Source: Methanolobus profundi (GTDB lineage: Archaea; Halobacteriota; Methanosarcinia; Methanosarcinales; Methanosarcinaceae). Taken from it: 64,000 nt of DNA. Where the stretch lies: positions 1 through 64,000 of the forward strand of contig NZ_FOUJ01000004.1 of NCBI RefSeq assembly GCF_900114835.1, given 5' to 3'. The position numbers were made by a program, and so were the translations under genes. Position 1 is the stretch's first letter. Each line of letters opens with the position of its first letter. The notes under the pieces are model-generated. The model ran no database searches. It saw only the letters and a program-made list of their open reading frames with translations, and was not told the DNA's origin. Of this stretch, positions 15,978 through 64,000 are shown piece after piece.

Positions 15978-15990
15978 GTATTAAAGCTTT
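15978..15990 (-). promoter_or_regulatory. TATA box of the S-layer-type gene
   Basis: The minus strand reads AAAGCTTTAATAC. A start near 15957 would give a leader of about 160 bases that includes the 11-codon ORF. A long, stable leader is common for S-layer mRNAs. Confidence 0.5.
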
Positions 15991-16203
15991 TGTGGTCCAA
16001 TATCAAACAATTATCGCATTGCAATGGCAAACATCGATGCAATTGACGGTAAATGTCGAACTTGTTCGTCGGTCAAAAAGAAAAAACAGGCGAAAACAGA
16101 AGTAATGTTTATAGATTGTCGATGTGTATAATATACTGATCCATATCCAAAAAACAGCTCAAAATGACAAATTAGGCCATTGCAACAGGAATAATTCAAC
16201 ATA

Positions 16204-16213
16204 TTTATATATA
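16204..16213 (+). promoter_or_regulatory. TATA box of the KaiC-like gene at 16318
   Basis: TTTATATATA is preceded by AACATA. It is the clearest box A upstream of the KaiC-like gene and would give a leader of roughly 80 bases. Confidence 0.45.
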
Positions 16214-16317
16214 TGATAACATAAAATGGACATAAAATAAAAGTCTAACAGGGCGCATAAATTTTTCGATCCGCTTTATCAGGTAATTACTAATGGTCAC
16301 AAGGAGTGAATAATAAG

Positions 16318-17097: not shown

Positions 17098-17112
17098 AAG
17101 ATACCGCAGAAA

Positions 17113-17256
17113 TCAAAGATCAGGGAACATTTCCTCATGGCCACATTCAACGCACTTGTGCACTACAAGTGCCCGGCCATACTGATCCTGCCTCTTTATA
17201 GCCGGATATCTCCAACGATTCATTTTTCCATCACATATAGGACATCTGTAGTTCAT
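17113..17256 (-). CDS. Small zinc-ribbon protein, 47 residues
   Basis: The minus strand encodes MNYRCPICDGKMNRW and continues to a second cysteine pair in HKCVECGHEE, ending MFPDL. The two CxxC knuckles are 30 residues apart, the spacing of a rubredoxin-like zinc ribbon. GGTGATATCA directly before the ATG is a strong ribosome site of the type used throughout this window. It is oriented opposite to the two KaiC-like genes and lies between them, divergent from the second. It is too short for usual ORF cutoffs but has clear coding features. The function is unknown; nucleic acid or protein binding is likely. Confidence 0.75.
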   Translation of the reverse strand: MNYRCPICDGKMNRWRYPAIKRQDQYGRALVVHKCVECGHEEMFPDL

Positions 17257-17275
17257 TGATATCACCAACAGTTAA

Positions 17276-17285
17276 TTATATAAAA
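17276..17285 (+). promoter_or_regulatory. TATA box of the two-domain KaiC-like gene
   Basis: TTATATAAAA lies 20 bases outside the start of the divergent zinc-ribbon gene and 68 bases before ATG 17353. The AT-rich interval probably serves both genes. Confidence 0.45.
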
Positions 17286-17352
17286 ATGTATATTAAATTA
17301 ACGAATAGAATATTATCCGACATATCGAAGTAAAATTACAAAAGAAGATAGA

Positions 17353-18729
17353 ATGGACCAGCTTAAAAATATCTCATGTGGCATTAAAGGACTTGACACC
17401 ATACTCGGAGGTATGATGTCACCATCAACCATACTGATAGCAGGATCAGCAGGAGTAGGAAAGACCATCATGTCACTTCAGATGCTTTCAAGTGCATCTA
17501 AGAACGGGGAAAAGGCACTTTATATACCCATCACGACAGAGAATCCTGAAAAGCTCAGCATGTACAATTCCACACTCGATTTCTTCGACGATTCTTTTGA
17601 GGTCCATCCAATTAACAGACAACTTGCAGAAAAGGACCCTTTAACGACCCTCATTGAAATAGGGAACATAATAGAATCTGTAAAACCTGACAGATTAGTT
17701 ATAGACCCGGTCACACCGCTTGGATTCGGATTTATCGAACAGGAAAAAAGAAGGTTCTTCTACACACTTGATTCAATGCTACAGGAAAGGAACATGCTCT
17801 CATTCCTTGTAGGAGAGTTATTGAAACCAGAGATACACAATTCAGTTATTAGCCACCTGTCAGATGGGATCGTATACCTCACCAGAGAGGATAGGAACTC
17901 AAGGGCAGACCACCGCATGGAATTCATTAAAATGAGAGGGATCGACCCTGGAAAGCGGTCAGAGATCACATCTCGCAAGTACCTCTACGACATAAATTCT
18001 ACAGGATTCACAGTATACCCACACCTGAGACCAGAAGAGAACATCGAGCTGGATGATACAAGAGTGGAAACAGGAATACCTGGCCTGGATAGTATGTTCG
18101 AAGGAGGACTCTTCAAATACAACAGCCTTCTGGTAGCAGGAGTACCTGGCACAGGGAAGAAAACATTTGGATTACAATTCATACTTCAGGGATTGGAGAA
18201 CAAAGAGCCAGCAGTCGTTGTCACCTTTGAGGATACACCGCATCAGATGATACTTGATGCAAAAAGGATGGGATGGGACCTCCAATCATATATTGATGAT
18301 GGATCGCTCTACTTCATATGTAGCAATCCAAGCGAGACATACCCGGCAGAACATGTGTCCCGTATCAAAGAACTTGTTGAGAAAAAGATGATCCAAAGGC
18401 TTTTCTTCGATGGAACGAACCACTTGCAATTATCGATACCTGATGAACTGGAGCTAAGAGGATACCTGTACTCGATCACAAGTTATCTGAAAAGCAGGAA
18501 CATAACATCCCTGTTCACAACAGACATACCTGCATCAGAATGCCCCGGGAACGAAAAAATAGATGTTGCAGCCATAATGGACTCTGTGCTCATATTACAT
18601 AATTCCAAAGCAAGGGACCGCAGATATATGTGTGTTACCAAGTCAAGGGGTACAAAGCATAAACGCTCTGTAAAAGAGTATGCTATCGCTGAAAGTGGGA
18701 TAAAACTCAGAACAGACACTTTGATATAA
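17353..18729 (+). CDS. Two-domain KaiC-like ATPase
   Basis: A 458-residue protein with two RecA-like halves. Half 1 has ISCGIKGLDTILGGMM and Walker A GSAGVGKTIM (near residue 32). Half 2 begins near residue 235 with ETGIPGLDSMFEGGL and Walker A GVPGTGKKTF (near 261). The second Walker A has Lys where Thr or Ser normally coordinates magnesium (GTGKKT still has a Thr one place later), so its activity may differ. Each half keeps a Walker B-like strand (RLVIDPVTPLG, RLFFDGTNHL). The two-domain architecture recalls cyanobacterial KaiC, but the phosphorylation Ser/Thr pair is not evident. It is convergent with the winged-helix gene. Confidence 0.85.
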   Translation: MDQLKNISCGIKGLDTILGGMMSPSTILIAGSAGVGKTIMSLQMLSSASKNGEKALYIPITTENPEKLSMYNSTLDFFDDSFEVHPINRQLAEKDPLTTLIEIGNIIESVKPDRLVIDPVTPLGFGFIEQEKRRFFYTLDSMLQERNMLSFLVGELLKPEIHNSVISHLSDGIVYLTREDRNSRADHRMEFIKMRGIDPGKRSEITSRKYLYDINSTGFTVYPHLRPEENIELDDTRVETGIPGLDSMFEGGLFKYNSLLVAGVPGTGKKTFGLQFILQGLENKEPAVVVTFEDTPHQMILDAKRMGWDLQSYIDDGSLYFICSNPSETYPAEHVSRIKELVEKKMIQRLFFDGTNHLQLSIPDELELRGYLYSITSYLKSRNITSLFTTDIPASECPGNEKIDVAAIMDSVLILHNSKARDRRYMCVTKSRGTKHKRSVKEYAIAESGIKLRTDTLI

Positions 18730-49116: not shown

Positions 49117-51777
49117 TCACCGGGCATAGATGCTGGAATTGTTTGTGACCGGGTCTTTCTCAACTGCAAATACGTGGTCAGCAGAATCAATGAGAGATTC
49201 ATCATGAGATACGATAAGGATCTGTGCCACCCCTATATCCCTCATCATGTCAATGAGCTTTATCAACTGGTGTATATGTCCCCGGTCAAGGAAAACAGTA
49301 GGTTCATCCATTATAAGAGATGGGAGCCCTGCACCATCATTGGATGATGTTCCAAGTGACAACAACCGGTATATAGCACACCGGAGCACGAGATTGAACA
49401 AAGCACGTTCTCCACCACTTAGAAGCTTCGGCTCAAGGGCAGTACCATCCTTCTCGAAAACTGTGAGATTGTAATCAGGATCAAGCATCACATGAGAATA
49501 TGCATTGTTGGAATACATGAATGAGAATATCTCATTTATCAACATATCAAGGGTCTGTATGTTACTGGAACGCAGATGTGCACGGATACGTACATACATG
49601 CTTTCAAGTTCCTCTGCATCGGAATATACTGCACTCAGATATTCCCCGCGATTCTTCAGCATGATCAGGTTCTTTTTAAGATCTGCAAGTCGTTTCCGGT
49701 CATTTTCAGCCATACCTGCCTTTTTCATCACATCATCCTTCTCGGCCTTCAACTTATCTAACTCGGAATTGATGAACTTGAAAGCAGATCCATAGTCCCT
49801 GTTAAGTGACTCGAGCTCCTTCTTATCGAACTCACCCATCTTCTTCTCGATATCTTCCAGAGATCCCTTTTTCTCCCCTATCTGACCATCAAAGAGAGAG
49901 ATCATTTCCTGGATGCTCTTTATCTTTTCGTCCATCTGCCTGATCTCTGAATCGATCTTATCGAACTCACCAAGTAACTTTTGCATCTCACGAGCAAGTC
50001 CAAGCTTTCCAAGAAGGACGGAATGTTCTTTCAGGACAGACTCTTCTCCCTGCTTTATCTGCTGAACCTTTTCTCTGGTCTCAGCAAGAGTCGTTTCAAG
50101 AACCTCTTTACCGGATATCAGTTCTTTTACCCTAACCTCATCTTCCCTGATACGTAACCCATACTCTTCAATACGTTTCTCATCTCTCTCGATCGCTTCT
50201 TTAGCAGACCCGATATCCCTGATGACGGACTCAATTTCCGACCTATGACCACGGGCTGTTCTGACCTTTTCGACCCTTCCCTCAGCTTCACTCTTCTTTA
50301 TCCTGAGTTCTGAAAGTTCCGTGCCCAGTTCAATTAACTCTTCATTATCAGAGACAGTTGATTCTTCCACACATGAACCTTTGAGCTCCTGACCACACGT
50401 AGGACATTTTCCTGCATCAAGGAGCTGCTTTGAGCGTTGAAGGCGATTCTTTATCTCAGAGACCTTCACCTTGAGTTCTGCTTCCTTAGCATGGAACATC
50501 TTCTGCTGGTCATTGACAAGATCAAGTACCTCATCGATATTCTCCAGTTTTTCAAGGCTCAGACCAAGAGACTCGATCTTAGCAACAACGTCCTTGCGCT
50601 TGTTGTCAAGCTCTCCGATACTAAGTCTGTGTTTCTCAATGCCATCCTTGATGGCTTTGATCTTAGACTCAACGTCCTTTCCTGAATTCTCAAGAGAACT
50701 TACCTGTTTCTCAATATCCTTCACTGACCGGACAGTATTGAGAACATCTTTTTCCAGTACAGCCTTTTTGCTTTTGGTCTCGCTGATATCATCACGCAAA
50801 GAACGCTCATCCTCATCCAGCTTTGAAACGACCGCATCAATGTTTTCAGGAGATGCTTCCAGCTTTCCCCCGATCTCTGAGACCCTGGACCTTTTTACCT
50901 CAAGAAGCTCCTTACGTGACCTGATATCCTTTAAAAGAGAGTCAATGGAAAGGAAGGATTTTGAACGCCTTTCAACCAATTCCCTGATCTGCTGTTGCAC
51001 AGCCTCTTTCTTGCTGGCAAGTTCTCCCAGTTCGGACATCTTCTTTGTTACCTCGTCCATTCTGGAAAGAGTGCGATCCCTCTTCTCGTTCAAAGATGAA
51101 ATTTCCCCATCGATCTCATTGGACCTCGTCCTCAAAGCAGCCAGTCTGCCACTTGGATCACTGTCCTCTACCAGAAGGATCTCACTGGTAACTTCCTTGA
51201 TACGTCTTTCATTATCTCTCTGATGACGACCGACTCCCACCCTGGCACTTGAAGCCCTTTCACGATATTCCTCCAGTTTACCCAGTTGGAGAAGGTCATC
51301 GATCATCTTCTGCCGGTCCTTGGGTTTCGAGTTGATCAGAACATCGATCTCTCCCTGACGAATATAAACACAGTTCCTGTAAGCCTCTTCATCCATATTG
51401 AGAAGAGAATGAACTGCCTCATAGGTCCGTGTTGCCTGATCGAATATTATTTCCCCGTCCTTCTTAAAGACGGATCTTGTATTGGATGCACGCCCCTTTT
51501 CAGGATCGTTCCTGAAGGACTGCTCAACAGAATAGGTATGACCGTTCTGCTCGAACTCCAGAAATATAGATGCCTTTGAAGCCCCTTTTGTGATGATATC
51601 AGAAAGCACGAACTCCTTGTCCAGTGTCTTACTTCCGAAAAGTCCCGTAAAACATGCTTCAAGAAGACTGGACTTTCCACTGCCATTCACACCTGAGACG
51701 ACTGTCACACCATTCTTGAAGGAGATGTCAAGCTCCTTATAGCTCCTTATATTCTCAACCTTCAGGCGTTTTAGCAT
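49117..51777 (-). CDS. rad50: DNA double-strand break repair ATPase Rad50
   Basis: An 886-residue SMC-like ATPase working with Mre11. Walker A is VSGVNGSGKSSLLEACFTGL, followed by a first coiled-coil arm. The zinc hook CPTCGQ (near residue 440) joins two molecules. The second arm, signature LSGGERALFNLVLRCAIYRLL, Walker B SLIMDEPTVFLDRG and final LIVSHDESL complete the fold. ATG 51777 overlaps the mre11 stop as TGATG; a GTG one codon earlier is possible. The partner is directly upstream. Confidence 0.97.
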   Translation of the reverse strand: MLKRLKVENIRSYKELDISFKNGVTVVSGVNGSGKSSLLEACFTGLFGSKTLDKEFVLSDIITKGASKASIFLEFEQNGHTYSVEQSFRNDPEKGRASNTRSVFKKDGEIIFDQATRTYEAVHSLLNMDEEAYRNCVYIRQGEIDVLINSKPKDRQKMIDDLLQLGKLEEYRERASSARVGVGRHQRDNERRIKEVTSEILLVEDSDPSGRLAALRTRSNEIDGEISSLNEKRDRTLSRMDEVTKKMSELGELASKKEAVQQQIRELVERRSKSFLSIDSLLKDIRSRKELLEVKRSRVSEIGGKLEASPENIDAVVSKLDEDERSLRDDISETKSKKAVLEKDVLNTVRSVKDIEKQVSSLENSGKDVESKIKAIKDGIEKHRLSIGELDNKRKDVVAKIESLGLSLEKLENIDEVLDLVNDQQKMFHAKEAELKVKVSEIKNRLQRSKQLLDAGKCPTCGQELKGSCVEESTVSDNEELIELGTELSELRIKKSEAEGRVEKVRTARGHRSEIESVIRDIGSAKEAIERDEKRIEEYGLRIREDEVRVKELISGKEVLETTLAETREKVQQIKQGEESVLKEHSVLLGKLGLAREMQKLLGEFDKIDSEIRQMDEKIKSIQEMISLFDGQIGEKKGSLEDIEKKMGEFDKKELESLNRDYGSAFKFINSELDKLKAEKDDVMKKAGMAENDRKRLADLKKNLIMLKNRGEYLSAVYSDAEELESMYVRIRAHLRSSNIQTLDMLINEIFSFMYSNNAYSHVMLDPDYNLTVFEKDGTALEPKLLSGGERALFNLVLRCAIYRLLSLGTSSNDGAGLPSLIMDEPTVFLDRGHIHQLIKLIDMMRDIGVAQILIVSHDESLIDSADHVFAVEKDPVTNNSSIYAR

Positions 51778-53312
51778 CACAGGTAATCACCCAGATTATA
51801 TTGACGGGGTTTCACAGAACCATTCTCTTTTTTCTCTTCCTCTGAAGAGGGTTTTTCTTCAGGGAGATCATCAAGAGCTTTTTCTGGAAGCTCTTCCTTA
51901 TCTCCCTCTAAACCTGAGATATTATCAGTATCATGCACCTCTTTCTCATTGACCGACACATCTGATACGGCATCATCAGAAGTATCAGCAACTTCAGCAT
52001 TGTGCTGATCAGGTACATCTTTTCCAGGCAAGGTCTCTTCTACATCATGGTCTACCATGACCTCGACCGGGGACTCTTCACCAATATTATCAACTTCAAT
52101 TTCAGGAATCTCTTCAGACCTATCCGTTTCAACATCCACGGAAGGTACAGGAGTACTAAGGGACTCAACAGGTACGGATACAGAGAAATCGATCTTATCA
52201 AGCAGTTCACCCAGTTTGTTCTCCGCCTCATCACCAACCTTGGTCTTTACAACATGAGGGTCCCTTATGATATCATCAAGCAGCAGACCACCGGAAGTCA
52301 GGTTCATCTTCCTGATCTCTTCCTTGACAACATCATCCGGATCAGAGAAAGAGACATTTAAAGATGGATCTGCAAGCGTATCAACACCTGTACGAAGGTC
52401 CTTTATCCCCGGAACCAGTGCACCTCTTGAAAGAAGGAACCTCTCAACCTCACTGAGGTCCATTTTGGACATAACATCACCGGATAGTTCTACAAAGGCC
52501 ACCTTATCGGTCAGGTCGTATTCCTTTATAGCGGAAAAAACATCATCCAGAGCATTCGAACCTTCTGTGAGAGCAACTGGTATGAAAACAAATTCACGGG
52601 TCGATATTGTCCGTTTACTTATCTCTATGCCACTTTTACCAATAGTGACTATATTATATGACCGGGGCTCACGCTCAGCGGTACTGTTCCTTTCGGTGCT
52701 CCCGGCATATGTGACCCATACATCATCCACTTTTGTGATCTCATACTTGTGATTATCTCCAAGAAGTACAGCATGAATATCGAACGGTATTGAATCGATC
52801 ACTTCTTTGATATCCCATTCACCAAATGCGAATGGTTTTACGAGCTGATGCATCACAAGCAGATTATAACGTGCATCTGTCCCTTTGCCATTGAATGTAG
52901 AATAATCGAACAATGGTATCTTTGTCTTTGCAACACTGTCGATACCATATATTGCCACATCTCCCAGTCGGTAAGGCTCGGCCCCAAGGCGGGTCACAAG
53001 ACCAAGACTACCGTAAAGATCAAGCCATTGGGTACTCTGTTTGCTCTCATGGTTACCAACAATAGCAAGCAAAGGAATACCTGCAGTCTTCAATCTTGAG
53101 AAAAGGCCCATGGCATCAAGAATATCATCAAGTGTAGGGTTCCTGGAATCGAACAGGTCTCCTGCATGAACTACAGCATCCACACTCATATCAATAGCAT
53201 CATCCACCACATTGGAAAAAGCATTGAGAAAATCCTTTCGGCGCACATCACTGTGATACTGCCGATACCCAAGATGCGTATCCCCTGTGTGAAGTATCCT
53301 TATCTCATCCAT
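51777..53312 (-). CDS. mre11: DNA double-strand break repair nuclease Mre11
   Basis: A 511-residue calcineurin-like nuclease. The N-terminal metal motifs are GDTHLGYRQY, VVHAGDLFDSRNPT, IVGNHESK and a GDNHKYE segment. It pairs with Rad50 for end resection. Residues about 370-495 are an acidic, repetitive, probably disordered tail much longer than in compact Mre11 proteins. The final residues QYNLGDYL have the spacing of a PCNA-interacting peptide (Gln, aliphatic at +3, aromatic at +6). The rad50 start overlaps the stop. Confidence 0.96.
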   Translation of the reverse strand: MDEIRILHTGDTHLGYRQYHSDVRRKDFLNAFSNVVDDAIDMSVDAVVHAGDLFDSRNPTLDDILDAMGLFSRLKTAGIPLLAIVGNHESKQSTQWLDLYGSLGLVTRLGAEPYRLGDVAIYGIDSVAKTKIPLFDYSTFNGKGTDARYNLLVMHQLVKPFAFGEWDIKEVIDSIPFDIHAVLLGDNHKYEITKVDDVWVTYAGSTERNSTAEREPRSYNIVTIGKSGIEISKRTISTREFVFIPVALTEGSNALDDVFSAIKEYDLTDKVAFVELSGDVMSKMDLSEVERFLLSRGALVPGIKDLRTGVDTLADPSLNVSFSDPDDVVKEEIRKMNLTSGGLLLDDIIRDPHVVKTKVGDEAENKLGELLDKIDFSVSVPVESLSTPVPSVDVETDRSEEIPEIEVDNIGEESPVEVMVDHDVEETLPGKDVPDQHNAEVADTSDDAVSDVSVNEKEVHDTDNISGLEGDKEELPEKALDDLPEEKPSSEEEKKENGSVKPRQYNLGDYL

Positions 53313-53450: not shown

Positions 53451-53918
53451 ATGGATAGTAAAGGACAGATCACTATAGATTATCTTATCAGCGTCACTAT
53501 TTTCCTGTTTGCAGTTGCTTTTGTATTCAACTACACTTCAGGCATATTCACACCTTTTATCTCGAATTCTGATGAAGTTACTCTTGTCGCTGACAGGGTC
53601 TCAACAGTCCTTGTAGAAATGACCCTGACCGAAGGAGATGGAAACGTCCCTAACATGGTGAACAGTTCGAAGGTAGATACATTCCTTACAGACCTCAACA
53701 ATAGTTACGAAACAACTATCGATGACCTGGGTATGACCGGCTCATATGTCAGATATGACCTCAATGTAACACTCGAAAATGAGACAGGCATCATCCGTAT
53801 GGCTGGCAAGGAAATGCCATCCGGAGTAAATATCGGACAGACGAAAAGAATAGTTCTTCTCAGATATACCGACACGGGGAACAGAGAGACGGCCATCATG
53901 TCATTCAGGGTGTGGTAA
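53451..53918 (+). CDS. Pilin-like protein A1, GQITIDYL type
   Basis: A 155-residue protein starting MDSKGQITIDYLISVTIF. A short charged leader ending in Gly is followed by Gln and a long hydrophobic helix, as in archaeal type IV pilin-like proteins cut by a prepilin peptidase. The soluble part is about 120 residues, beta-rich with several N-glycosylation sequons. It is collinear with B1 (58249), whose N terminus SGQIAVDFLLGIS is equivalent; the B1 body is twice as long. Both end in an F/VEV or SFRVW-type strand. First gene of cassette A. Confidence 0.7.
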   Translation: MDSKGQITIDYLISVTIFLFAVAFVFNYTSGIFTPFISNSDEVTLVADRVSTVLVEMTLTEGDGNVPNMVNSSKVDTFLTDLNNSYETTIDDLGMTGSYVRYDLNVTLENETGIIRMAGKEMPSGVNIGQTKRIVLLRYTDTGNRETAIMSFRVW

Positions 53919-53919
53919 C

Positions 53920-54534
53920 ATGGTCATATGGATATTCCCGGATGAAATGGATACACACGGCCAGATGCATTCCCTGGAAGCATTGATGGCATCACTGATA
54001 ATGATCGGAATAATAGTCTTCGCAGTAGAGGCTACTTCTCTGACACCCCTTACATCATCAACTGCAAATGCACACATAGAGGCACAATTGCAGACAATGG
54101 GACAGGATATGTTGAATACATTGTCCTACACAGGTCACGAGCATAACTCTGATCTTAAGAATGACATACTGAACTGGAACGGGACAGAATATGTGTGGAA
54201 CGGGACAGGATACGACTCAAGAGACTCCAATAATATTACACTGGTGAACAGTTCACTTGGAGAGATATTTGAATTCATAGCTATCCCAAGAGGAATTGCC
54301 CACAATGTCCATTTCACATGGGTCAATGAGAATGGAATTACCATTTCCAGACCTTACATCTATAATGGGGACCCATCTGACAATGCGGTGATAGTTTCAA
54401 AGAAGGTTGTGCTTTCCGATTACGAAGTTGGGAACACATCGACCTTCATAGTAGATACAGGCATACCAGATGCAGATAATAGTAGCGAATTCTACAACAT
54501 AGTCAACGTCAAGATGACACTCTGGAGAATGTGA
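53920..54534 (+). CDS. Pilin-like protein A2, HGQMHSLEA type
   Basis: A 204-residue protein; the likely functional N terminus is MDTHGQMHSLEALMAS (from ATG 53947), a Gly-Gln prepilin-like site before a hydrophobic helix. The body has sequons (NGTEY, NGTGY, NNITLV) and a segment HNVHFTWVNENGI. The end NIVNVKMTLWRM matches RVVEVRMTTWKV of B2 (59202), showing homology over the whole length. It starts two bases after A1. Cell-surface subunit role inferred. Confidence 0.65.
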   Translation: MVIWIFPDEMDTHGQMHSLEALMASLIMIGIIVFAVEATSLTPLTSSTANAHIEAQLQTMGQDMLNTLSYTGHEHNSDLKNDILNWNGTEYVWNGTGYDSRDSNNITLVNSSLGEIFEFIAIPRGIAHNVHFTWVNENGITISRPYIYNGDPSDNAVIVSKKVVLSDYEVGNTSTFIVDTGIPDADNSSEFYNIVNVKMTLWRM

Positions 54535-54554
54535 GAGAACTGGGGCGTGAAACA

Positions 54555-55409
54555 ATGAAAAGGTTCGATGATAGTGCACAGTTACTTATCCTTGCAGGAT
54601 TTGCAGTGGGCGTAGGCATTGTAGTTCTTACCATAATGCTGAACAATGTGATATATGCCAGCAACATCGCATCTGAATCAAGCATTGATACTTCACGCAA
54701 CGATATCGAGAATGCCATCAGTATGACCACAGAAGCATATGAAGATGCATACAGATCGGCAACAGAGGCAGGACCCTTCAATAATACTATTTTTGAACAA
54801 TATCTGAACGGATACGAGGAAATGGCAGCAAGGAACTATGCCATAGCAGGCCTTACATTCAACCTTGATAATAACACACTGCATGAAGCATATATGACAA
54901 AGAACGGACTTTTCGATGGCGAAGATGACTGGACCATCGTCAGGAACGTCAATACAACGGATGTTTTCCTTTTCGAGGTCAACGATACCTCTACGCTTGG
55001 GAACAGTTCCAACAGTTTCATGATCACGATAACTAACAGCACAGGACTTCTATGGTCTGTGGAACTGTACAATTCCAGTGGGAATATAAATATCACCGTA
55101 ACCGACCAGTCATCTGTTATTGAACAACACGTTGCCACCTCACAGATCAATGTGACAGGGGACATGAAAGATTATACCGTCCCAGCATCTTTCCAATTCG
55201 ATTCCCATACGTCAGGAAATGACTATTCAATAAACATCGTCAATGGAAGCAATGTCATTGCTTACTGCACTTTAAATGGCACTCTTACTACCGGGGAGCC
55301 TTTCACTTTTGCAAGATATTTCGTAGCTAAACCCACGATCACAATGCATTCCAGGGAGATGAGCATAACACGCGAAATCCCAACATCCTTACCAGGGAGG
55401 GTATCATGA
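54555..55409 (+). CDS. Pilin-like protein A3
   Basis: A 284-residue protein beginning MKRFDDSAQLLILAGFAVGVGIVVL: a short polar leader and one membrane helix, then a large beta-rich extracellular region with many sequons (NNTIFE, DNNTLH, NSTGLL, NGSNVI). ATG 54555 has GGGGCGTGAAACA before it, so I prefer it to the upstream ATG at 54531. The position matches B3 (59711), whose NGQWIILSGLVISLI N terminus is the counterpart. It overlaps A4 by ATGA. Confidence 0.65.
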   Translation: MKRFDDSAQLLILAGFAVGVGIVVLTIMLNNVIYASNIASESSIDTSRNDIENAISMTTEAYEDAYRSATEAGPFNNTIFEQYLNGYEEMAARNYAIAGLTFNLDNNTLHEAYMTKNGLFDGEDDWTIVRNVNTTDVFLFEVNDTSTLGNSSNSFMITITNSTGLLWSVELYNSSGNINITVTDQSSVIEQHVATSQINVTGDMKDYTVPASFQFDSHTSGNDYSINIVNGSNVIAYCTLNGTLTTGEPFTFARYFVAKPTITMHSREMSITREIPTSLPGRVS

Positions 55410-55885
55410 AATTACGTAACCTGAATGAGGACGATAATGCAGTATCGATAACAATAGGATTCATACTTACATTTTCGATAACTGTGATAATACTTGTAAC
55501 TATACTCAGCTCGTTCTATTCTCTTATGGACAGAGCAGAACAGACCGTTATGCGAGATGAGTTCGAGATACATGGAAATGATATTGCAGTTCGTATCGCA
55601 ACCATCGACACCATGATCGGAACTGCGACCAATGCAGGCTCTGACGTAGGAGAGCTCAGATATGAGCTGTCGCTTCCCGAGCGAATAGCGGGGAAAACAT
55701 ATTCCATAGAGATCGTTAACAGCAGCAAAGGTATCGTCTTTATGTCAGAGGAAAGGGAAGAAACAAAGATCATTGTCCCATACTACACCAAGAATACGGT
55801 GGTCCATTCAACTACATTACATAGCCCGAAGGGAGAGTACATTATCAGGTACGACCCCGGCGCTAATGCCATAATAATATCCTGA
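55406..55885 (+). CDS. Pilin-like protein A4
   Basis: A 159-residue protein: a short acidic leader NLNEDDNAVSIT, a hydrophobic helix (about 15-35), then about 120 residues. The segment LRYELSLPERIAGKTYSIEI corresponds to IETEYRIPEKVGKETYIINA in B4 (60163), and both have a final region rich in Ser/Tyr/Ile. Its ATG overlaps the A3 stop. No catalytic motif is seen; a minor subunit of a surface filament is likely. Confidence 0.65.
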   Translation: MKLRNLNEDDNAVSITIGFILTFSITVIILVTILSSFYSLMDRAEQTVMRDEFEIHGNDIAVRIATIDTMIGTATNAGSDVGELRYELSLPERIAGKTYSIEIVNSSKGIVFMSEEREETKIIVPYYTKNTVVHSTTLHSPKGEYIIRYDPGANAIIIS

Positions 55886-55896
55886 GGGAAAGGAAA

Positions 55897-56673
55897 ATGA
55901 CAGGAAGATATAAAATATTCACTTCAGATGATGCTGTATCAGAAGTTGTCGATTTCAGTATCACCCTTGGAATAATGCTCCTGGCAATAAGCATCATAGG
56001 CCTGGTGGGCTATCCTCTTATCGAACACATGAAGGAATCAGGACATATAGAGAATATCAAGCAGAGCTTTTCCGTTCTTACCCCTAACATGAACAAGATC
56101 GTCTCGGGCAAGGCCCCTTCACAATCCGTAGAACTGAAGATGTATGGAGGAGGCGTGTTCATCACAGGAAGCAGTTATATGAACATCACCATGGACAAGT
56201 GGAATGACTCCTCGTCCTCAATTGATACTATTTCCTTCGAAAGACAATTGCGTATGATACAGAATGACTACAAGTATACGACAATAGCCTATGAGAATAC
56301 AGGTGCATGGGCAAGATATCCCCCTGGCGGATCGGTCATGGTAACAAAACCGATGTTCGCATATGACGACAGTTCAATGATCATCCCCATGGTGACCATC
56401 ACAGGAACAAAAGGGATCTCTGGTTCCGGGCTTATCAGAGTTATCTCAGAGGGCGGACAGCTCGCAGTAGAAAAATACGAGAATGTATCCAGGGTCCGGA
56501 TCGAGATATCCAGTGAATATTATGATGCATGGGCAAGATATCTGGACAATTCCGTAGGCATGCAGATGATCGATCTTAATTCAAGCAGCAGGACCGCGAT
56601 CATGGAAAAGAACTACAGCCAGAATATCGATGTTTTCGTAACAGTATCGCCAATGAGTGTGACCGTAGAGTGA
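55897..56673 (+). CDS. Pilin-like protein A5
   Basis: A 258-residue protein with leader TSDDAVSEVVDFSI, a hydrophobic helix (about 18-42), and FSVLTPNMNKIVSGKAPSQS. A strand block AWARYPPGGSVMVTKPMF and a later ISSEYYDAWARYLDN follow. These blocks recur in A6 (GGGVWSRYPNGRSVMISPPEF, SEFYNAWADYANS) and in B5 (GGVFKSYPPDSTVMVSQPPI, SPYAPRWAEYLED). A5, A6 and B5 are therefore one family. It lies 11 bases after A4. Confidence 0.7.
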   Translation: MTGRYKIFTSDDAVSEVVDFSITLGIMLLAISIIGLVGYPLIEHMKESGHIENIKQSFSVLTPNMNKIVSGKAPSQSVELKMYGGGVFITGSSYMNITMDKWNDSSSSIDTISFERQLRMIQNDYKYTTIAYENTGAWARYPPGGSVMVTKPMFAYDDSSMIIPMVTITGTKGISGSGLIRVISEGGQLAVEKYENVSRVRIEISSEYYDAWARYLDNSVGMQMIDLNSSSRTAIMEKNYSQNIDVFVTVSPMSVTVE

Positions 56674-56699
56674 ACAATATAATTTAAAGGTGTTATATC

Positions 56700-58151
56700 A
56701 TGAAAAACTTCATAGGATCAGAAAAAGCTGTCTCTGCAGTAGTAGGAGTAATAGTGATACTTGCACTTACGATCACATCGATCAGCGTGATCTTCCTGTA
56801 TGGTGTTCCAACTATATACAAGATGGAAGATATGGCAAATGCCCAGAAAGTGGAGCAGGCCTTCACGGTATTCGACTCAAGGACCAGTAAGGTGGCTTTA
56901 GGTGAGTCACCAAGTCAGACCACATCATTCTCAATGATGGATGGGGACATACAGGTGAACGGGAATAATGCATCATACGAAGAGAGTAAGATCGTTGTTA
57001 TTTCTGTTGATATAGATGCCGCATGGTACAATAGTTTCAAACAGAAAAGATACAGATGGGAGGGGTGGAAGAACTACACCAGTAATCCCGGTATGAACGA
57101 GTTCAATTCTTCAATGGGAAGTATTGTTTTCACCAATGATGACAGGGTCATCGGTTATGAGGGTGGAGGAGTATGGTCCAGATACCCTAATGGAAGATCA
57201 GTGATGATCTCACCTCCTGAATTCCACTATAATGGAGAAACTCTTACCCTGCCAATAATGAGAATTGAAGGAGATGCTGCATCTGGTGGAGTATCTGATG
57301 TCGCAGTAACGATCAGCTCAGACAATATGCCTACCATAATGTATCCGGACCCTGCAACTGATTCCAGAAGAACGAATCCTCTTACATCGGATAAGGTCAT
57401 CATTTACATCAAGAGCGAGTTCTATAATGCCTGGGCAGATTACGCAAATTCCCTTGCATATGCCAGTGCTGTAACAGATGACACAAACAAGACAGCAGTC
57501 ATAGAACTTGAAGTTATTCCTGCAATGGGTAAGGACACTCTTAAAACTGCTTTCAAGATCGGTGCTGTCAATCAGGATAATCCGGCACCCATATACAATT
57601 TCTCATTCGACCTCGAAGCAAGGGCATCACAAGGTTTGAACCCGAGTAACTACCAGATCACTGCCACCTCAGGAACAAAGACACTGACCTATACACTTGC
57701 AAAGAAAGGTGGTGCCAACCAGCTTGAAATAGGAGTTATCTATGAGGATGTTGCCCCGGGCGGAGGAATTGAAACATGGGAAGGTAATACTGAATTTCCC
57801 GTAAGTGGCACGAAAGAAGACCAATCTGCAAATGTGGACCTGCTTTCAACAACATTGACCCTGGAATATGAAGAGAGCAGCGATTTCTCATGGGCGAACA
57901 ATACATCGATCAGTATAACTCCTGATATTGAATACACCGGTGGGGAAGATGTTGCATTATATGATCTGACACAACATTACCTGAAACTTCTGACGATGGA
58001 AGGATCTGTTGTGTTCAACCTGCAGCAACCAGGAAATTCCGATCCAGTGGACTATGATGAATCAACCCTTACTTTGTACTATGATGGAATGCCTGGAAGT
58101 ATCACTTATCTTCATGTGAGCAGAAATGACCTTGTAGCGACATTGAACTAA
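56700..58151 (+). CDS. Pilin-like protein A6 with additional C-terminal domain
   Basis: A 483-residue member of the A5/B5 family. N terminus GSEKAVSAVVGVIVILALTI, close to archaeal pilins and flagellins that start with AVSxVIG. The conserved core reaches about residue 275. The extra C-terminal 200 residues (FDLEARASQGLNPSNYQITA and LTLEYEESSDFSWANN) have no counterpart in A5 or B5. It is the last gene of cassette A, 26 bases after A5 with GGTGTTATATC before the ATG, followed by a new promoter at 58213. Confidence 0.7.
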   Translation: MKNFIGSEKAVSAVVGVIVILALTITSISVIFLYGVPTIYKMEDMANAQKVEQAFTVFDSRTSKVALGESPSQTTSFSMMDGDIQVNGNNASYEESKIVVISVDIDAAWYNSFKQKRYRWEGWKNYTSNPGMNEFNSSMGSIVFTNDDRVIGYEGGGVWSRYPNGRSVMISPPEFHYNGETLTLPIMRIEGDAASGGVSDVAVTISSDNMPTIMYPDPATDSRRTNPLTSDKVIIYIKSEFYNAWADYANSLAYASAVTDDTNKTAVIELEVIPAMGKDTLKTAFKIGAVNQDNPAPIYNFSFDLEARASQGLNPSNYQITATSGTKTLTYTLAKKGGANQLEIGVIYEDVAPGGGIETWEGNTEFPVSGTKEDQSANVDLLSTTLTLEYEESSDFSWANNTSISITPDIEYTGGEDVALYDLTQHYLKLLTMEGSVVFNLQQPGNSDPVDYDESTLTLYYDGMPGSITYLHVSRNDLVATLN

Positions 58152-58212
58152 GACTGTACTATAATCAGTAAGACCTCTCTGTGTAACAAAATATCACTCA
58201 TATTTAACAAAT

Positions 58213-58224
58213 CTTTTTTATATT
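58213..58224 (+). promoter_or_regulatory. Promoter of pilin-like cassette B
   Basis: TCTTTTTTATAT, identical over 12 bases to the core of the cassette A promoter. It lies 25 to 36 bases before ATG 58249, so the mRNA should be nearly leaderless. Confidence 0.65.
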
Positions 58225-58248
58225 GAGATGGTCATATATACAGACTGA

Positions 58249-59205
58249 ATGAAAGATGAGAGCGGACAGATAGCCGTTGATTTCCTGTTGGGCATATCCC
58301 TGGTCCTCATTGCTCTTTCTTTCACAATGCAGTTCGTCCCAGGGCTTTTTACGTCAGGTTCAGCAGGGGAGAGTAGTTTAGACTATACAGCTTACCGCAC
58401 AGCCACGATCCTTGTAGAGGACACTGGCTGGTGGGAGCACAGCACCGGGAATGGAACTGACTGGGAGACACACACCTCTGATCTGATGAGGATCGGCCTT
58501 GCTGTTGACGATGAACCGGGAACAAGGCTCACCAACGTACCCAACCTCATCTCAAAAGATAAGATCGGACAGTTCATGCTACTTGATGAAAGCATTATGG
58601 TCGAGGTGCTCGGATTATACAATAATGTTGATGGGTCGCGTTTTGCCTACGGGTACAATATATCGATCACAAAGAAAGGAGCAATCATTAACGTCAATAA
58701 CACGGCCATTACCCGTGGAACAACAGTCCCGGACGACCAGGAGATCGCAAAGATCTCAAGGATAGTACTGATAGAACATGGAACAACTGCTGTCCTTAAA
58801 GGAGATAGTATTACCAGTTCATCCTCATCAAAGGCAACTGTTAACATAACAGGACCTTTTGAAGAGAACATAACAATACAGCTCCAGAATTTAAATATCA
58901 GTGGAGTAGGTCCTGCTTTTGTGAATGCCAGCCTTGACGGAGCAATACTGACACAACCTGCTGATATGACCATCTACAGACTGGAAGGATGGGATCATTC
59001 ACCATTTAGTGGAAGCCTGAACGGTACAGATGTGATCTGTTTTAACATCGACAACTCACTTTTCAATATGGGTACTGAATACAGGATCGACCTGGAGTTC
59101 AGTAACGTTACATTCAACAATACAGGAACATCTTTTGTAAATTACAATAATATCAGCAGCCCGCTCTACGAACCTGCTTACCTCACAGTGGAGGTGTGGC
59201 AATGA
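58249..59205 (+). CDS. Pilin-like protein B1, GQIAVDFL type
   Basis: A 318-residue counterpart of A1 with the same N-terminal block (KDESGQIAVDFLLGISLVLI) and following hydrophobic helix. The extracellular part of about 280 residues includes TILVEDTGWWEHSTGNGTDW and several sequons (NISI, NITGPF, NITIQL, NASL). It is longer than A1 by about 160 residues. The stop overlaps the ATG of B2 (ATGA at 59202-59205). Confidence 0.7.
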   Translation: MKDESGQIAVDFLLGISLVLIALSFTMQFVPGLFTSGSAGESSLDYTAYRTATILVEDTGWWEHSTGNGTDWETHTSDLMRIGLAVDDEPGTRLTNVPNLISKDKIGQFMLLDESIMVEVLGLYNNVDGSRFAYGYNISITKKGAIINVNNTAITRGTTVPDDQEIAKISRIVLIEHGTTAVLKGDSITSSSSSKATVNITGPFEENITIQLQNLNISGVGPAFVNASLDGAILTQPADMTIYRLEGWDHSPFSGSLNGTDVICFNIDNSLFNMGTEYRIDLEFSNVTFNNTGTSFVNYNNISSPLYEPAYLTVEVWQ

Positions 59206-59714
59206 ACGAGAAGGGGCAGTTGCATACCCTGGAAGGACTGGCAGCAGCTCTGATGATAACGATGACAGTGCTTGTGATATCACAAAGTACCATGATGGTA
59301 ACCCCACAGAATGAGCTGGCTGTGAACGTCCATCTTGAGCAGCTCAGTTCAGATGCTCTTGCGGTCATTGATACCGCAGACTCCGGTTCAGTAGAACATG
59401 ACCTTACAGAATGTGTTTCAAGCTGGAACATGATGGAAGCAACATATCCTGCAAGTAGCCTCTGTGATCTTGATGATGAACTTTCTTACCTGTTGCCTGG
59501 TGTACTGTACAACATCGAACTTGCGTACTTCAAGGACCAGAACCTCAATGTGAAGAAGGTTATAATCAATGGTCCACCCGGTGAGAACTCTGTTGTTGTA
59601 AGGAGATTTGTAACAATTACCAACGAGACAGTAAATGATGCCGGAGGTGGCTGGAACCTGAAAGAAGATGAATTGAGGGTCGTAGAAGTGAGGATGACAA
59701 CATGGAAAGTATGA
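59202..59714 (+). CDS. Pilin-like protein B2, KGQLHTLEG type
   Basis: A 170-residue protein starting MNEKGQLHTLEGLAAALMIT after GAGGTGTGGCA. It has a Gly-Gln prepilin-like site and a hydrophobic helix. The extracellular part of about 140 residues ends RVVEVRMTTWKV, homologous to the end of A2. The start overlaps the B1 stop and its own stop overlaps the ATG of B3: the cassette is translationally coupled. Confidence 0.68.
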   Translation: MNEKGQLHTLEGLAAALMITMTVLVISQSTMMVTPQNELAVNVHLEQLSSDALAVIDTADSGSVEHDLTECVSSWNMMEATYPASSLCDLDDELSYLLPGVLYNIELAYFKDQNLNVKKVIINGPPGENSVVVRRFVTITNETVNDAGGGWNLKEDELRVVEVRMTTWKV

Positions 59715-60166
59715 AAGATAATACGAACGGACAATGGATCATTCTTTCTGGACTAGTCATATCACTTATACTTATAGGACTTGCCACCCTGGCCAACCAG
59801 GCAGTTATAGCAGGATATCATTCATCCAATGCCGCTCTTGAGTTTCCCAAAGAGAGCATCAGGGAACTAAATTCACATACCAGGGACAATGCAAGGATAA
59901 TAAAGGACCTCACACTCCATATCAACAGCACCAGTAATGATACTGTACCGTTTATCTATGAAGGTCTTTTCAAAAATTATAGTGAACAGATAGAGGGCCT
60001 TTATGCACTCCATGGGGAAACCGCAGACCTTACACTGGTATCTGTTAATTCCACTAATGGAACGGTCAACACATCTGACATCGACATGATATTTGTCAAT
60101 ATCACATATTTCGACGGTAACACATACTATTCTTCAAGACCCGAGATAATCGAGGTGAATGAATGA
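59711..60166 (+). CDS. Pilin-like protein B3
   Basis: A 151-residue protein MKDNTNGQWIILSGLVISLI with one N-terminal membrane helix and an extracellular domain with sequons (NSTSND, NYSEQI, NSTNGT). It holds the third cassette position like A3 and is about half its length. The ATGA overlap with B2 favours ATG 59711 over the upstream ATG at 59702. Confidence 0.62.
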   Translation: MKDNTNGQWIILSGLVISLILIGLATLANQAVIAGYHSSNAALEFPKESIRELNSHTRDNARIIKDLTLHINSTSNDTVPFIYEGLFKNYSEQIEGLYALHGETADLTLVSVNSTNGTVNTSDIDMIFVNITYFDGNTYYSSRPEIIEVNE

Positions 60167-60600
60167 AGATGCTCAAAGATGAGTCCGGAAGTTCACTACT
60201 ATTCGAATACATATTGTTCTCCCTGATATGCATTGGCTTTTTCATGGTAGTGAGTATCAATTCCAATGAGATCTTCATCCAGAGACCAAATGAGGTTGTA
60301 ATGGAGGATGAGATGAGCGATATAGGGAATATGATGAGCACACTGATCACTGACATATATCTGATACTTCCAGATAACGGTAAAATAGAAACAGAGTACA
60401 GGATCCCTGAGAAAGTTGGAAAAGAGACGTACATCATCAACGCGGATATCGCTTATACGGACCAGATAATAGAAGTGGTCTCATCATCAGGAAAGACAGT
60501 AAGGGTGACCATCGGCGGGATCGCTACTACAATGCCTATCAACGGAACGGTCTCAAGCAGTTCCACATACCACATGATCAGTTATGATTCAACAAGATAG
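60163..60600 (+). CDS. Pilin-like protein B4
   Basis: A 145-residue protein: KDESGSSLLFEYILFSLICIG leader and helix, then a short domain with IETEYRIPEKVGKETYIINA as in A4. GAGGTGA precedes the ATG, which overlaps the B3 stop. Its last 17 bases overlap B5. Confidence 0.65.
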   Translation: MKMLKDESGSSLLFEYILFSLICIGFFMVVSINSNEIFIQRPNEVVMEDEMSDIGNMMSTLITDIYLILPDNGKIETEYRIPEKVGKETYIINADIAYTDQIIEVVSSSGKTVRVTIGGIATTMPINGTVSSSSTYHMISYDSTR

Positions 60601-61318
60601 AAAAGATTCAGCTGTTTCGGAGACACTTGGATACATACTTTTGTTCGGTATTGTCACCCTGTCCATGGGAGTGATCTATACGGTGGGCTATCCCGTACTG
60701 CAAAGTAACATGGACTCCAATATATTTGAAAGTGCAGAGCAGAGTTTCATCGTACTCCAGAGTGGAATGGACCGTGTAGCCTTTGACCAGGTACCTTTGA
60801 AGATACTTAAAATGAAGTTGCAGGGGTCATCTTTGGCCATAAGTAACACATCATCGGTCACCATTACATATGATGGGAACCCGCCATTGAATATAACAAC
60901 CGGCGATCTTGTTTTTGAAAAAGCAGGAAAGAAGATAAGCTATGAGCTGGGAGGGGTCTTCAAATCATATCCACCTGATTCAACTGTAATGGTATCACAG
61001 CCTCCCATATATGCGATCACCAGTGACAATGTGGAAGTGACAACTATAGGGATCGTTTCACTCAAAGGCAGCGATTATGTCTCTGGAAGAGGTATAGCTA
61101 CCCTCACTATCGAACATGGATCCAGCACCATGGAGCGCACAACATCACCTACAAATGTAGATATACAAATTAACAGCCCCTATGCACCAAGATGGGCAGA
61201 ATATCTTGAAGACAACGGGTTCTCAGTAACAAATATCACATCTTCCTCCGTCCATGCAAGTAAGAACAATACTATCCTGATCCTGAGTCTGCATGAGATA
61301 GATGTGGATATATCCTGA
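60584..61318 (+). CDS. Pilin-like protein B5
   Basis: A 244-residue member of the A5/A6 family: leader QDRKDSAVSETLGYILLFGI, hydrophobic helix, EQSFIVLQSGMDRVAFDQ, GGVFKSYPPDSTVMVSQPP and INSPYAPRWAEYLEDN. It overlaps B4 by 17 bases and is the last gene of cassette B. The giant repeat protein gene converges on it, 55 bases away. Confidence 0.68.
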   Translation: MIQQDRKDSAVSETLGYILLFGIVTLSMGVIYTVGYPVLQSNMDSNIFESAEQSFIVLQSGMDRVAFDQVPLKILKMKLQGSSLAISNTSSVTITYDGNPPLNITTGDLVFEKAGKKISYELGGVFKSYPPDSTVMVSQPPIYAITSDNVEVTTIGIVSLKGSDYVSGRGIATLTIEHGSSTMERTTSPTNVDIQINSPYAPRWAEYLEDNGFSVTNITSSSVHASKNNTILILSLHEIDVDIS

Positions 61319-61373: not shown

Positions 61374-64000
61374 TTAACATATACAGATGGTACCTTTTGG
61401 TCTGACATATATCACTTCTTCAGCCACCAGTACATCACTTGCATTGTTCACATTATATGCATAAGCAGTGATGTATGCCTTACCGGCCGTAAGACTGGAG
61501 AAATCAACTGAATCAGAACCTACAACTGTCAGATTGATGGGGTTCTCATAATTGTCAAAGTAACCAATGCTACTGTAAAGATGCACATACGCAAAACTTG
61601 AATTACCCATTGTATCTGTGAGTGTCAACTGTATGTTAGAAGTGCTGGCTATTGGCAGAGTGGTCTTGTCAGGTACCATATCCAGGCTTCCCAGTGAATA
61701 GGACAGGACACTGGCCGCACCCCCACCAACACTCGCCGTTCCTCCGCTTGGTATGTAAACAGTGATGTTCTCACCGCTGAGGTCTGTATATGTGACGGTG
61801 GAAGTTGGCATTATTATAGGAACATACCCTGCACCATCGATCCTCATCTGGTACCATATACCCCATTTATCGCCGGCACCCATATTTGGCAACTGCCATT
61901 CAAGTGTGGACATACTACTGGATATATTGATAGAAGGTTCAGCATTCCCGGTAGCTGGTGCCACAGGGTTGTTGAAGACGGTTGCATTGCCTGTGGTGGC
62001 ATTGCTACTGCCTGCTATATAACTTGCCTTTGCAACAGATGATGAGGTCACATAGTTGTAAGGTACATGGATATCCAGCACAGGCCCACCTGCAGAGAAG
62101 TTCGTTATCTGGGAGGCGATCCCCCTGAAGATATCCTTTAGAACACTGGAATTAGGTGCAAAGTAGTATTCACCACCGGTTATGTTTGCAATTTCCTCAA
62201 GTACAGGGTCAACCTCGGATTCATTGTTACCGAACCCCACCGTATAGATCACAGTATTGTTATCCCGTGCCCTGTATGCTTCCTCAAGCAGAGAGTGATA
62301 ACCTGCATTGTCCATACCATCGGTCATTATGACTATGGTAGAGTTCCCATCTGCTGAAGATAGCTCAGTGTTAGCAACAAAAAGACCTTCGTCGATAGCT
62401 GTCAGCCCATCGGCAGTTATTGTATCAATTGCATTCTCCAGATGTGACAGAGAGTCATTCTCAAGGGTCGATGTCACACTGGCTGTCCACTGGTTCCAGG
62501 ATACCGGAGTACTTTCTGAGACAGGGTCGACGTCATTGAACACTATATCGAAACATTCATAGTACCTTGTAGAGGATGTCTCAACCTCAGAGACAATGCT
62601 CCAGGAACTACCGTCCCACCTCTGTACGTTCAGATCATTGTTACCGTCAGAGGTCATCAGGAACATTGCATCAGAATCCGGGTCAGGGGTTAGCTGTACC
62701 CATCGTGTATAGCCACTGCCACCAAGCCCTGATGCCAGCGATTCCGGACCCCAGGAACTACCATTCCATATACGGTATCTTGGGATAAGGTCACTTGTAC
62801 CCCATACCACCATACCTGTTCCACTGGACTGTTCAAAAGCAACATCCATGGACCTTCTGCTATATTCGTACACATCGGTCTCTATCTCCAGTGGTGATGA
62901 CCAGGATGAACCATTCCATGATGTGACATGAATATCATATTTGTTATCCAGTGCTGCAAGGAGGATATTATCGGAATTGGGATCAGAACCCATCTTTATC
63001 CAGTAGACACGTTCATCAGGTTCATACAGGTTGTTTGCAGAACTCCAGGAACTGCCATCCCATATACGATACATCACATAACCCGTGCTCAGATCGGACC
63101 ATGTGACAATTGCCCTGCCTGTCCCATGTTCATAGGCAAGGTCAAAGCATTGATAACCTGTTGCTCTGGCATTGTTCGTGATAATTACCGGATCAGCCCA
63201 GGAAGAGCCATCCCAGACCTGTGCCCTTATATCCCTCTGGTCATCAAGTGTCACAAGTACCATCTCATCGGATGAAGGATCAGTTTCCAGTCTTACCCAT
63301 CCAACATCTCCCGCTCCAGGACTGCTACCATCTACTGCTGAACCTGAGCTCCAGGAACTGCCATCCCATATACGATACATTGGGATCCTGCCATCTATAT
63401 CCGTATCCACATATACAACAACAGCATCACCTGATGTCTGTTCATACTTAAGGTCAAAGCCTCTTCTACTGTAGGAATCGAGATGAGATGTGAACTGGTC
63501 AACGCTGCCCCATGAGGAGCCATCCCATATCTGTACATTAAGATCGTAATTGTTATCCGAAGTGGCCATTATCACTTCTGAACTAAGAGGATCGGACTCG
63601 AGCAGTACATAATAAGGACTTCCACCAACATAATTTGCAGATCCCTCGGAAGACCATTCTATTCCATCCCAGGTCCTGTACCTTGGAGTTCCACCTCCTC
63701 CACTGCTATCATAGTATGCGGTCATGATGGTATCGATATCAGATGTTGATACATTTACAGTGAACTTTGTATCTGAACCATTGCCTGACCCCTTGAGAAC
63801 TTCCAGATAATAAGGATCACCAGCTGAAAGCATATATGATACATCACAACTGCCAGTGCCATTAGAAGATGAAACTACATCTATACCTTCATAGAGATGG
63901 ACATCCATGAATGATGTGTCATCCCATGTTACATTGAATGTGTAGAAACCAGTCATATCAGGGATGAAATAACCCACCCACGAACTATTATCAAGAACAT
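61374..64000 (-). CDS. Giant secreted repeat protein with von Willebrand A segment, 5' end missing
   Basis: The frame is open to the window edge; 875 residues are visible. In order: a PPC-like beta domain (YFIPDMTGFYTFNVTWDD); four repeats of about 98 residues, each with two copies of the WDGSSW-type turn and an YRIWDGSSWSS block, together like an eight-bladed propeller; a von Willebrand A segment with LTAIDEGLF, STIVIMTDGMDN and TVGFGNNESEVDP; then Ig-like or Hyalin-like strands ending GTICIC. The DxSxS of the MIDAS is not seen in this part and may lie upstream. Many sequons indicate an exported, glycosylated protein. No C-terminal anchor is evident. Confidence 0.82.
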   Translation of the reverse strand, partial: VLDNSSWVGYFIPDMTGFYTFNVTWDDTSFMDVHLYEGIDVVSSSNGTGSCDVSYMLSAGDPYYLEVLKGSGNGSDTKFTVNVSTSDIDTIMTAYYDSSGGGGTPRYRTWDGIEWSSEGSANYVGGSPYYVLLESDPLSSEVIMATSDNNYDLNVQIWDGSSWGSVDQFTSHLDSYSRRGFDLKYEQTSGDAVVVYVDTDIDGRIPMYRIWDGSSWSSGSAVDGSSPGAGDVGWVRLETDPSSDEMVLVTLDDQRDIRAQVWDGSSWADPVIITNNARATGYQCFDLAYEHGTGRAIVTWSDLSTGYVMYRIWDGSSWSSANNLYEPDERVYWIKMGSDPNSDNILLAALDNKYDIHVTSWNGSSWSSPLEIETDVYEYSRRSMDVAFEQSSGTGMVVWGTSDLIPRYRIWNGSSWGPESLASGLGGSGYTRWVQLTPDPDSDAMFLMTSDGNNDLNVQRWDGSSWSIVSEVETSSTRYYECFDIVFNDVDPVSESTPVSWNQWTASVTSTLENDSLSHLENAIDTITADGLTAIDEGLFVANTELSSADGNSTIVIMTDGMDNAGYHSLLEEAYRARDNNTVIYTVGFGNNESEVDPVLEEIANITGGEYYFAPNSSVLKDIFRGIASQITNFSAGGPVLDIHVPYNYVTSSSVAKASYIAGSSNATTGNATVFNNPVAPATGNAEPSINISSSMSTLEWQLPNMGAGDKWGIWYQMRIDGAGYVPIIMPTSTVTYTDLSGENITVYIPSGGTASVGGGAASVLSYSLGSLDMVPDKTTLPIASTSNIQLTLTDTMGNSSFAYVHLYSSIGYFDNYENPINLTVVGSDSVDFSSLTAGKAYITAYAYNVNNASDVLVAEEVIYVRPKGTICIC

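Follow-up and report, generated by a model that had tools for sequence, protein, structure and literature searches.

How do archaeal type IV pili stick, and what is the role of their many minor pilins? Both matters are little understood, and both are raised by a locus of Methanolobus (Methanosarcinaceae; genome G000 below), in which eleven consecutive genes of two cassettes, A1-A6 and B1-B5, occupy positions 53451 to 61318 of the window, that is, of the whole stretch of DNA analysed, the first 64 kb of the 373-kb contig C14. An earlier note on this DNA had described the genes as pilin-like, and this is fully recovered: all eleven open reading frames (ORFs) are present at the coordinates reported there, and each protein combines one N-terminal hydrophobic helix with a leader that is short and polar and with a class III-like site (predicted cleavage site) of [G/A]-Q or A/G-VS form. 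We propose, with a probability of roughly 0.55, that the cassettes encode low-copy pilins of a PilB4-type archaeal pilus which form a tip or priming complex, and that a VWA adhesin is displayed by the complexes of one kind of cassette, type II. The genes are listed below with protein lengths in amino acids (aa).

53451..53918, plus strand: A1, type I slot 1; DUF7287 pilin-like, 155 aa; D at mature position 5; PF23958 E=1.3e-32; 53% identity to D1
53947..54534, plus strand: A2, type I slot 2; DUF7288 pilin-like, 195 aa; E at position 6; PF23959 E=3.5e-47; start MDTHGQ chosen over the longest ORF, which begins at 53920
54555..55409, plus strand: A3, type I slot 3; DUF7261-like, 284 aa; helix start without acidic residue; predicted tip cap; PF23922 E=4e-4, under cut-off
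55406..55885, plus strand: A4, type I slot 4; DUF7266 pilin-like, 159 aa; PF23928 E=1e-13
55897..56673, plus strand: A5, type I slot 5; DUF7289 pilin-like, 258 aa; PF23960 E=2e-23
56700..58151, plus strand: A6, type I slot 6; DUF7289 with C-terminal DUF7308 extension, 483 aa; PF23960 6.8e-24, PF23985 1.2e-23
58249..59205, plus strand: B1, type II slot 1; DUF7287 with C-terminal extension, 318 aa; PF23958 9e-17
59202..59714, plus strand: B2, type II slot 2; DUF7288, 170 aa; PF23959 3.7e-23
59711..60166, plus strand: B3, type II slot 3; short form, 151 aa; helix start without acidic residue; no Pfam match; among the type I profiles matches slot 3 only (1.5e-8)
60163..60600, plus strand: B4, type II slot 4; 145 aa; no Pfam match; matches the type I profile of slot 4 (8e-13); same slot VWA-grafted in Methanomicrobia-like relatives
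60584..61318, plus strand: B5, type II slot 5; DUF7289, 244 aa; PF23960 5.9e-33

Two types of pilin cassette

The pilin set itself is of a known kind, being composed of Pfam DUF families that stand beside a PilB4-type ATPase and TadC in haloarchaea, and the cassettes of the window follow the DUF7287-7288-(7261)-7266-7289 order of the PilB4-type set. Comparison of the sequences shows that A1-A6 and B1-B5 are collinear paralogues. BLASTP pairs A1/B1 (1e-11), A2/B2 (4e-12), A4/B4 (1.5e-4) and A5/B5 (8e-28), as well as A5/A6 within cassette A (3e-25), and detects no similarity between A3 and B3. In hhalign comparisons of profiles built from cassettes of this family, 25 of type I and 13 of type II, significant scores between types are restricted to the matching slots 1 to 5 (5e-21, 6e-20, 1.5e-8, 8e-13 and 3e-33), and type I slot 6, itself a DUF7289 protein, predictably scores high with type II slot 5 as well; these E-values are those of single comparisons, for which the off-diagonal cells, the best of them at 5e-5, are the better yardstick. 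When the N-terminal 48 residues are removed slots 1, 2, 4 and 5 remain significant, which indicates that the likeness exceeds that of shared pilin N-termini, and slot 3 drops to 28% probability, its homology residing mainly in residues 8-104, helix included.

The claim that cassette B repeats the order of cassette A is thus borne out by the BLASTP partners and by the profile scores, and neither a lack of similarity between partners nor an unconserved order in homologous operons was found: the order P1-P2-P3-P4-P5(-P6) is kept in 87/87 cassettes across the phylum, a sample selected for P1-P2 at the start, and permuted loci (L088, L140 and L170) lie outside it. DUF7288 is present in 104/150 genomes of the order and in 193/295 sampled genomes of the phylum, the best named relatives of A2 being in Methanolobus species (75-79% protein identity). 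Here and below, haloarchaeal-like and Methanomicrobia-like are readings from guanine-cytosine (GC) content and gene content, and the starts of several relatives' genes are mechanical ORF starts. In one type I relative (L039) slot 2 is broken into two ORFs, and in a haloarchaeal-like genome a 2,267-aa ORF with a DUF7289-like match (L135:9023-15826, plus strand) lies between two oppositely oriented cassettes.

Searches of the genome evidence that the window edge cuts the locus, since the contig carries four cassettes in total, interspersed with three giant secreted proteins, all encoded on the minus strand:

61374..63998, minus strand: giant VWA/lectin-propeller protein 1, C-terminal part in the window; whole gene contig 61374-66905, 1,843 aa; convergent with cassette B
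contig 67,162-70,258, just past the window: cassette C, five genes, B-like
contig 70,548 to ~76,500, minus strand: giant 2, 1,983-codon open frame
contig 76,705-82,770, minus strand: giant 3, 2,021 aa
contig 83,079-87,783, just past the window: cassette D, six genes, A-like

Identities amount to 40-54% for A/D pairs, 50-72% for B/C pairs and ~24-29% for the detected A/B partners. In a tree of slot 5 the Methanosarcinales type II proteins group with Methanomicrobia-like type II, apart from type I (support 84, moderate); the split between types I and II is deeper than that between Methanosarcinales and Methanomicrobia-like type II, and the A/D and B/C splits fall inside Methanolobus and near relatives. 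Judged from these sequences, type I (six genes) and type II (five genes) are two old types, each re-duplicated later in Methanolobus (A/D, B/C), and the single duplication of a five-gene set put forward earlier is ruled out by the two further cassettes and the slot-5 tree. Likewise A6, with its DUF7289 and DUF7308 domains, had been regarded as an extra copy and is instead the conserved sixth gene of type I cassettes, most of which carry a sixth DUF7289 gene. The overlap of gene starts and stops holds throughout cassette B, where every adjacent pair overlaps (-4, -4, -4 and -17 bp), but not in cassette A, where A3/A4 is the only such pair and the remaining gaps measure 11-28 bp; it had been taken as a sign of subunits made in fixed ratio, and on stoichiometry overlap is uninformative.

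A putative VWA adhesin, separate or grafted

The cassettes had been considered alone in the earlier note, and as cassettes they are real, but what had been missed is the convergent giant VWA gene lying from 61374 onward, a consistent partner of type II. Indeed, in the giant-bearing Methanosarcinales families a convergent giant is found -8 to ~565 bp beyond 14/15 type II cassettes, and type I cassettes have none. The three giants of the locus are paralogous, with VWA domains apparently nested and signal-peptide-like N-termini, that of giant 1 being judged by eye to be a Sec-type signal. Pfam scans of the giants recognize three Big_1 domains, one full-length and one partial VWA, and a PA14-like stretch; the proteins also contain a region of repeats. 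DxSGSM motifs, of the DRSGSM (MIDAS) form, occur at 602 and 624 and TDG at 1528, a motif order which suggests that the inner VWA, the PA14-like part and the repeats are inserted into the second, outer VWA behind its first strand. The repeat region is modelled as a beta-propeller (pLDDT 88.5) whose predicted fold is closest to the seven-bladed sugar-binding lectins PLL, PHL and BP39L (E ~1e-10, TM 0.65-0.70 on target), from which it differs in having 11-14% identity and in forming one part of a larger protein with several domains (1,840-2,020 residues). At one further locus (L100:11373-15149 and 15189-17867) the giant gene is in two ORFs, by either a frameshift or a true gene split.

A distinct arrangement is observed in 13 Methanomicrobia-like cassettes, where no giant was seen and slot 4 is 790-969 aa long. 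Three of these 13 proteins were scanned and consist of a DUF7266 pilin followed by PKD, VWA and DUF11 modules. The grafted VWA is interrupted at the same place as the outer VWA of the giant, after DxSGSM(DPDY), with DVSGSMDPDY followed by SDG ~310 residues later, and 208 columns from the VWA through the following domain can be aligned with the C-terminal end of the giant (hhalign 99.4%, 6e-22); within the Methanolobus genome the best matches to the graft are the three giants (1e-12; next 5e-4). Slot 4 is not the only slot to be extended in relatives: in family f3, possibly ANME-2, the slot-2 DUF7288 pilins of L092:5003-9538 and L093:5041-9855 (minus strand) reach 1,511 and 1,604 aa because their DUF7288 domain is split in two by an insert of integrin-like FG-GAP repeats, and elsewhere slots 3 and 4 bear immunoglobulin (Ig)-like Big_7 grafts.

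These grafts, of 400-1,300 residues on slots 2, 3 or 4, fit low-copy tip subunits better than the five-component filament in fixed ratio that had been suggested. They bear in the same way on the alternative that survives best, though we hold it to be unlikely, namely that the cassette pilins form the whole filament, either as a five- or six-component heteropolymer or with slot 4 or 5 as the major pilin: such grafts are ill-suited to a major subunit, and nine Pilin_N pilins over cut-off (PilA-like, in trans) are encoded elsewhere in the genome, although type I slot 4 (DUF7266, ~155 aa) is itself weakly Pilin_N-like at its N-terminus and, in those parts of the 2016 survey that treat it, the Haloferax PilB4 locus is proposed to include its own major pilin (PMC4858521).

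Considerably less probable is a short pseudopilus, akin to type II secretion, that secretes or displays the giants in place of a true adhesive pilus. The signal-peptide-like N-termini of the giants and their linkage to type II cassettes would suit it; there is, however, no outer membrane to cross, the grafted forms evidence that a VWA module can belong to a pilin, type I cassettes stand without a convergent giant, and the A and B proteins have no Pfam match to the type II secretion GspHIJK families at E<=1. Just as improbable, the giants might be independent S-layer-associated proteins hitch-hiking in a surface-protein island, in line with their place on the opposite strand, outside the cassette operon, and with the general frequency of VWA and Ig-like domains on archaeal surface proteins, but hardly with a 14/15 linkage over several genera and a split VWA plus following domain shared by the in trans and in cis architectures.

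The proposed tip complex and its motor

Returning to the tip complex, each cassette would supply a PilB4-group type IV pilus with low-copy pilins, six from type I and five from type II, which would assemble in the membrane into a tip or priming complex. Slot 1 has D at +5 in 69/73 proteins and slot 2 has E at +6 in 82/83, whereas in slot 3 an acidic residue at +1 to +7 is found in 0/85; a predicted class III-like site is read from the sequence in nearly all slots. By analogy, slot 3, acid-less near its helix start, may be the cap at the apex of the complex. A motor of ATPase and TadC encoded elsewhere would then extend the complex on a PilA-like major pilin. Type II complexes would present the VWA adhesin, in Methanolobus in trans, as the giant with its lectin-like beta-propeller, and in Methanomicrobia-like genomes in cis, grafted on slot 4, so that four cassettes and three giants may provide several alternative adhesive tips for one pilus machine.

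The absence of an assembly ATPase and a prepilin peptidase, noted earlier for the window, extends to the whole contig, on which neither a motor ATPase nor an A24 prepilin peptidase was found: the genome has nine PilB/VirB11-type ATPases over cut-off, 0 of them on C14, and a single A24 peptidase elsewhere. In Methanosarcinales no ATPase with TadC lies within ~10 kb of the cassettes. We do not take this as excluding PilB4-type membership, because the survey, in its relevant portion, reports members of the group whose pilins are encoded away from the motor (PMC4858521). The check proposed earlier, for a PilB/TadA-like ATPase nearby in relatives, came out positive: haloarchaeal-like genomes (GC 58-68%) have an ATPase of 850-1,380 aa and a ~680-aa TadC before or next to the cassette, and in some Methanomicrobia-like genomes its neighbours are a 513-561-aa ATPase and a ~620-640-aa TadC. 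Such pairs adjoin the same pilins in L133, L135, L136, L137 and L149 (haloarchaeal-like), and also in L143, L148, L151, L154 and L155.

In Methanolobus the cassette motor is presumably encoded elsewhere, the best candidate being the following pair:

G000:C7:1,046,371-1,050,782: candidate motor, ATPase/TadC pair

Of the ATPases in this genome, it is the one most similar to those adjoining L143, L154 and L155 (56-57% identity) and, by small margins, the one that scores highest with 5/5 haloarchaeal-like ATPases; forks are weak in the ATPase tree used to test for the PilB4 euryarchaeal clade. Among 25 chosen genomes an orthologue (>=64%) is present in 20/20 cassette carriers and 0/5 non-carriers. 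Among 150 genomes of the order, ATPase and DUF7288 are both present in 96 and both absent in 41, with 13 discordant (DUF7288 only in 8, ATPase only in 5). This tally was made by hand at an ATPase threshold of E<1e-200, one truncated 70%-identical match being scored as present, and its Fisher p of 4e-23 ignores shared ancestry and is not to be taken literally. The paralogous ATPase C7:345,083, which forms one locus with TadC and DUF7289 and was a candidate on account of that DUF7289 gene, does not co-vary with the cassettes and was rejected as a general motor: several carriers lack it, and it occurs in genomes that have no cassette. At G000:C7 662001-674009 lies another, distinct type IV pilus locus, probably of PilB3 type, which comprises an ATPase, TadC, four PilA-like pilins, one more Pilin_N gene and a protein with DUF7289.

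A number of observations weigh against the tip complex as proposed. BLAST pairs the graft with the inner VWA of the giants, whereas the profile match pairs it with the outer one, and VWA is a common domain; for some type II cassettes (L144, L150, L165, L167 and L089) the part that was read shows no giant and no graft. As to the motor, two good genomes (G087 and G025) lack the C7:1,046,371 orthologue despite the co-occurrence trend, its losses are concentrated in two large genera (probably Methanosarcina and one related to it), and the ATPases adjoining type II cassettes in L148 and L151 are slightly closer to C7:345,083. The AlphaFold2 model of A5, with a long helix (11-69) and a beta domain (pLDDT 91.7), is in favour, but that domain matched no solved structure in a PDB fold search, so that a pilin fold for DUF7289 is supported by its sequence signature and its architecture. 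The Glu5 rule is not followed by all archaeal pilins, which makes the slot-3 cap the weakest step. Finally, the survey of Makarova et al., in its passages on this set, puts forward one PilB4-set pilin as the major pilin (PMC4858521).

Comparison with described systems

The nearest described relative is the euryarchaeal PilB4 system of Haloferax volcanii (Makarova, Koonin and Albers 2016, PMC4858521), to which the cassettes correspond, as far as the consulted sections of that survey describe it, in pilin families, in their order and, in haloarchaeal-like relatives, in the ATPase and double-length TadC; slots 5 and 6 behave as arCOG02911 (duplicates, 250-550 aa), a mapping of arCOGs to DUFs that we infer. 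They differ in that Methanosarcinales cassettes are apart from the motor, occur in two types and up to four copies, and, in type II, go together with a VWA adhesin that is either a separate protein or a graft, a coupling not described in those sections. A literature search for an archaeal VWA pilus tip turned up only this survey.

Bacterial type IV pili begin from a minor-pilin tip complex (PMC10191384, PMC7541494, PMC8179133), whose cap subunit lacks the conserved Glu5 (PMC10191384), as we suggest for slot 3, and which may bear PilY1 or grafted modules (PMC7541494, PMC8179133). In Myxococcus xanthus three minor-pilin/pilY1 clusters serve one machine (PMC7541494). The present locus resembles the PilHIJK and PilY1 of this species and of Pseudomonas in having several minor-pilin clusters beside a large VWA adhesin, and the giants share with PilY1/PilC-type proteins the VWA with MIDAS motif and the linkage to minor-pilin genes. 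Unlike PilY1, they have no PilY1 C-terminal domain (IPR008707) among their Pfam matches, and were therefore rejected as PilY1 homologues, and their propeller is lectin-like; nor do the A and B proteins match bacterial minor-pilin families in Pfam. PilB of Streptococcus sanguinis (PMC8179133) offers a parallel for the graft, as it carries a VWA with MIDAS on a pilin module, the same grafts being found on pilins and on separate tip proteins. Here, however, the carrier is DUF7266, the modules include PKD and DUF11, and the VWA is interrupted; moreover, the modular architecture (slot 4 VWA, slot 2 FG-GAP, slot 3/4 Big_7) belongs to relatives, while slot 4 of the window is ungrafted and its VWA protein separate.

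We tentatively suggest, giving it somewhat less than even odds, that an exchangeable adhesive tip arose in archaea independently of bacteria, with a conserved five-pilin complex, an acid-less cap, a VWA/lectin adhesin that is either separate or grafted, and four alternative tips for one motor. If true, the solution that bacteria have in PilHIJK-PilY1 would have arisen a second time.

Directly upstream of A1, on the opposite strand, positions 49117-53312 of the window hold Rad50- and Mre11-like genes, named by eye and unrelated to the cassettes.

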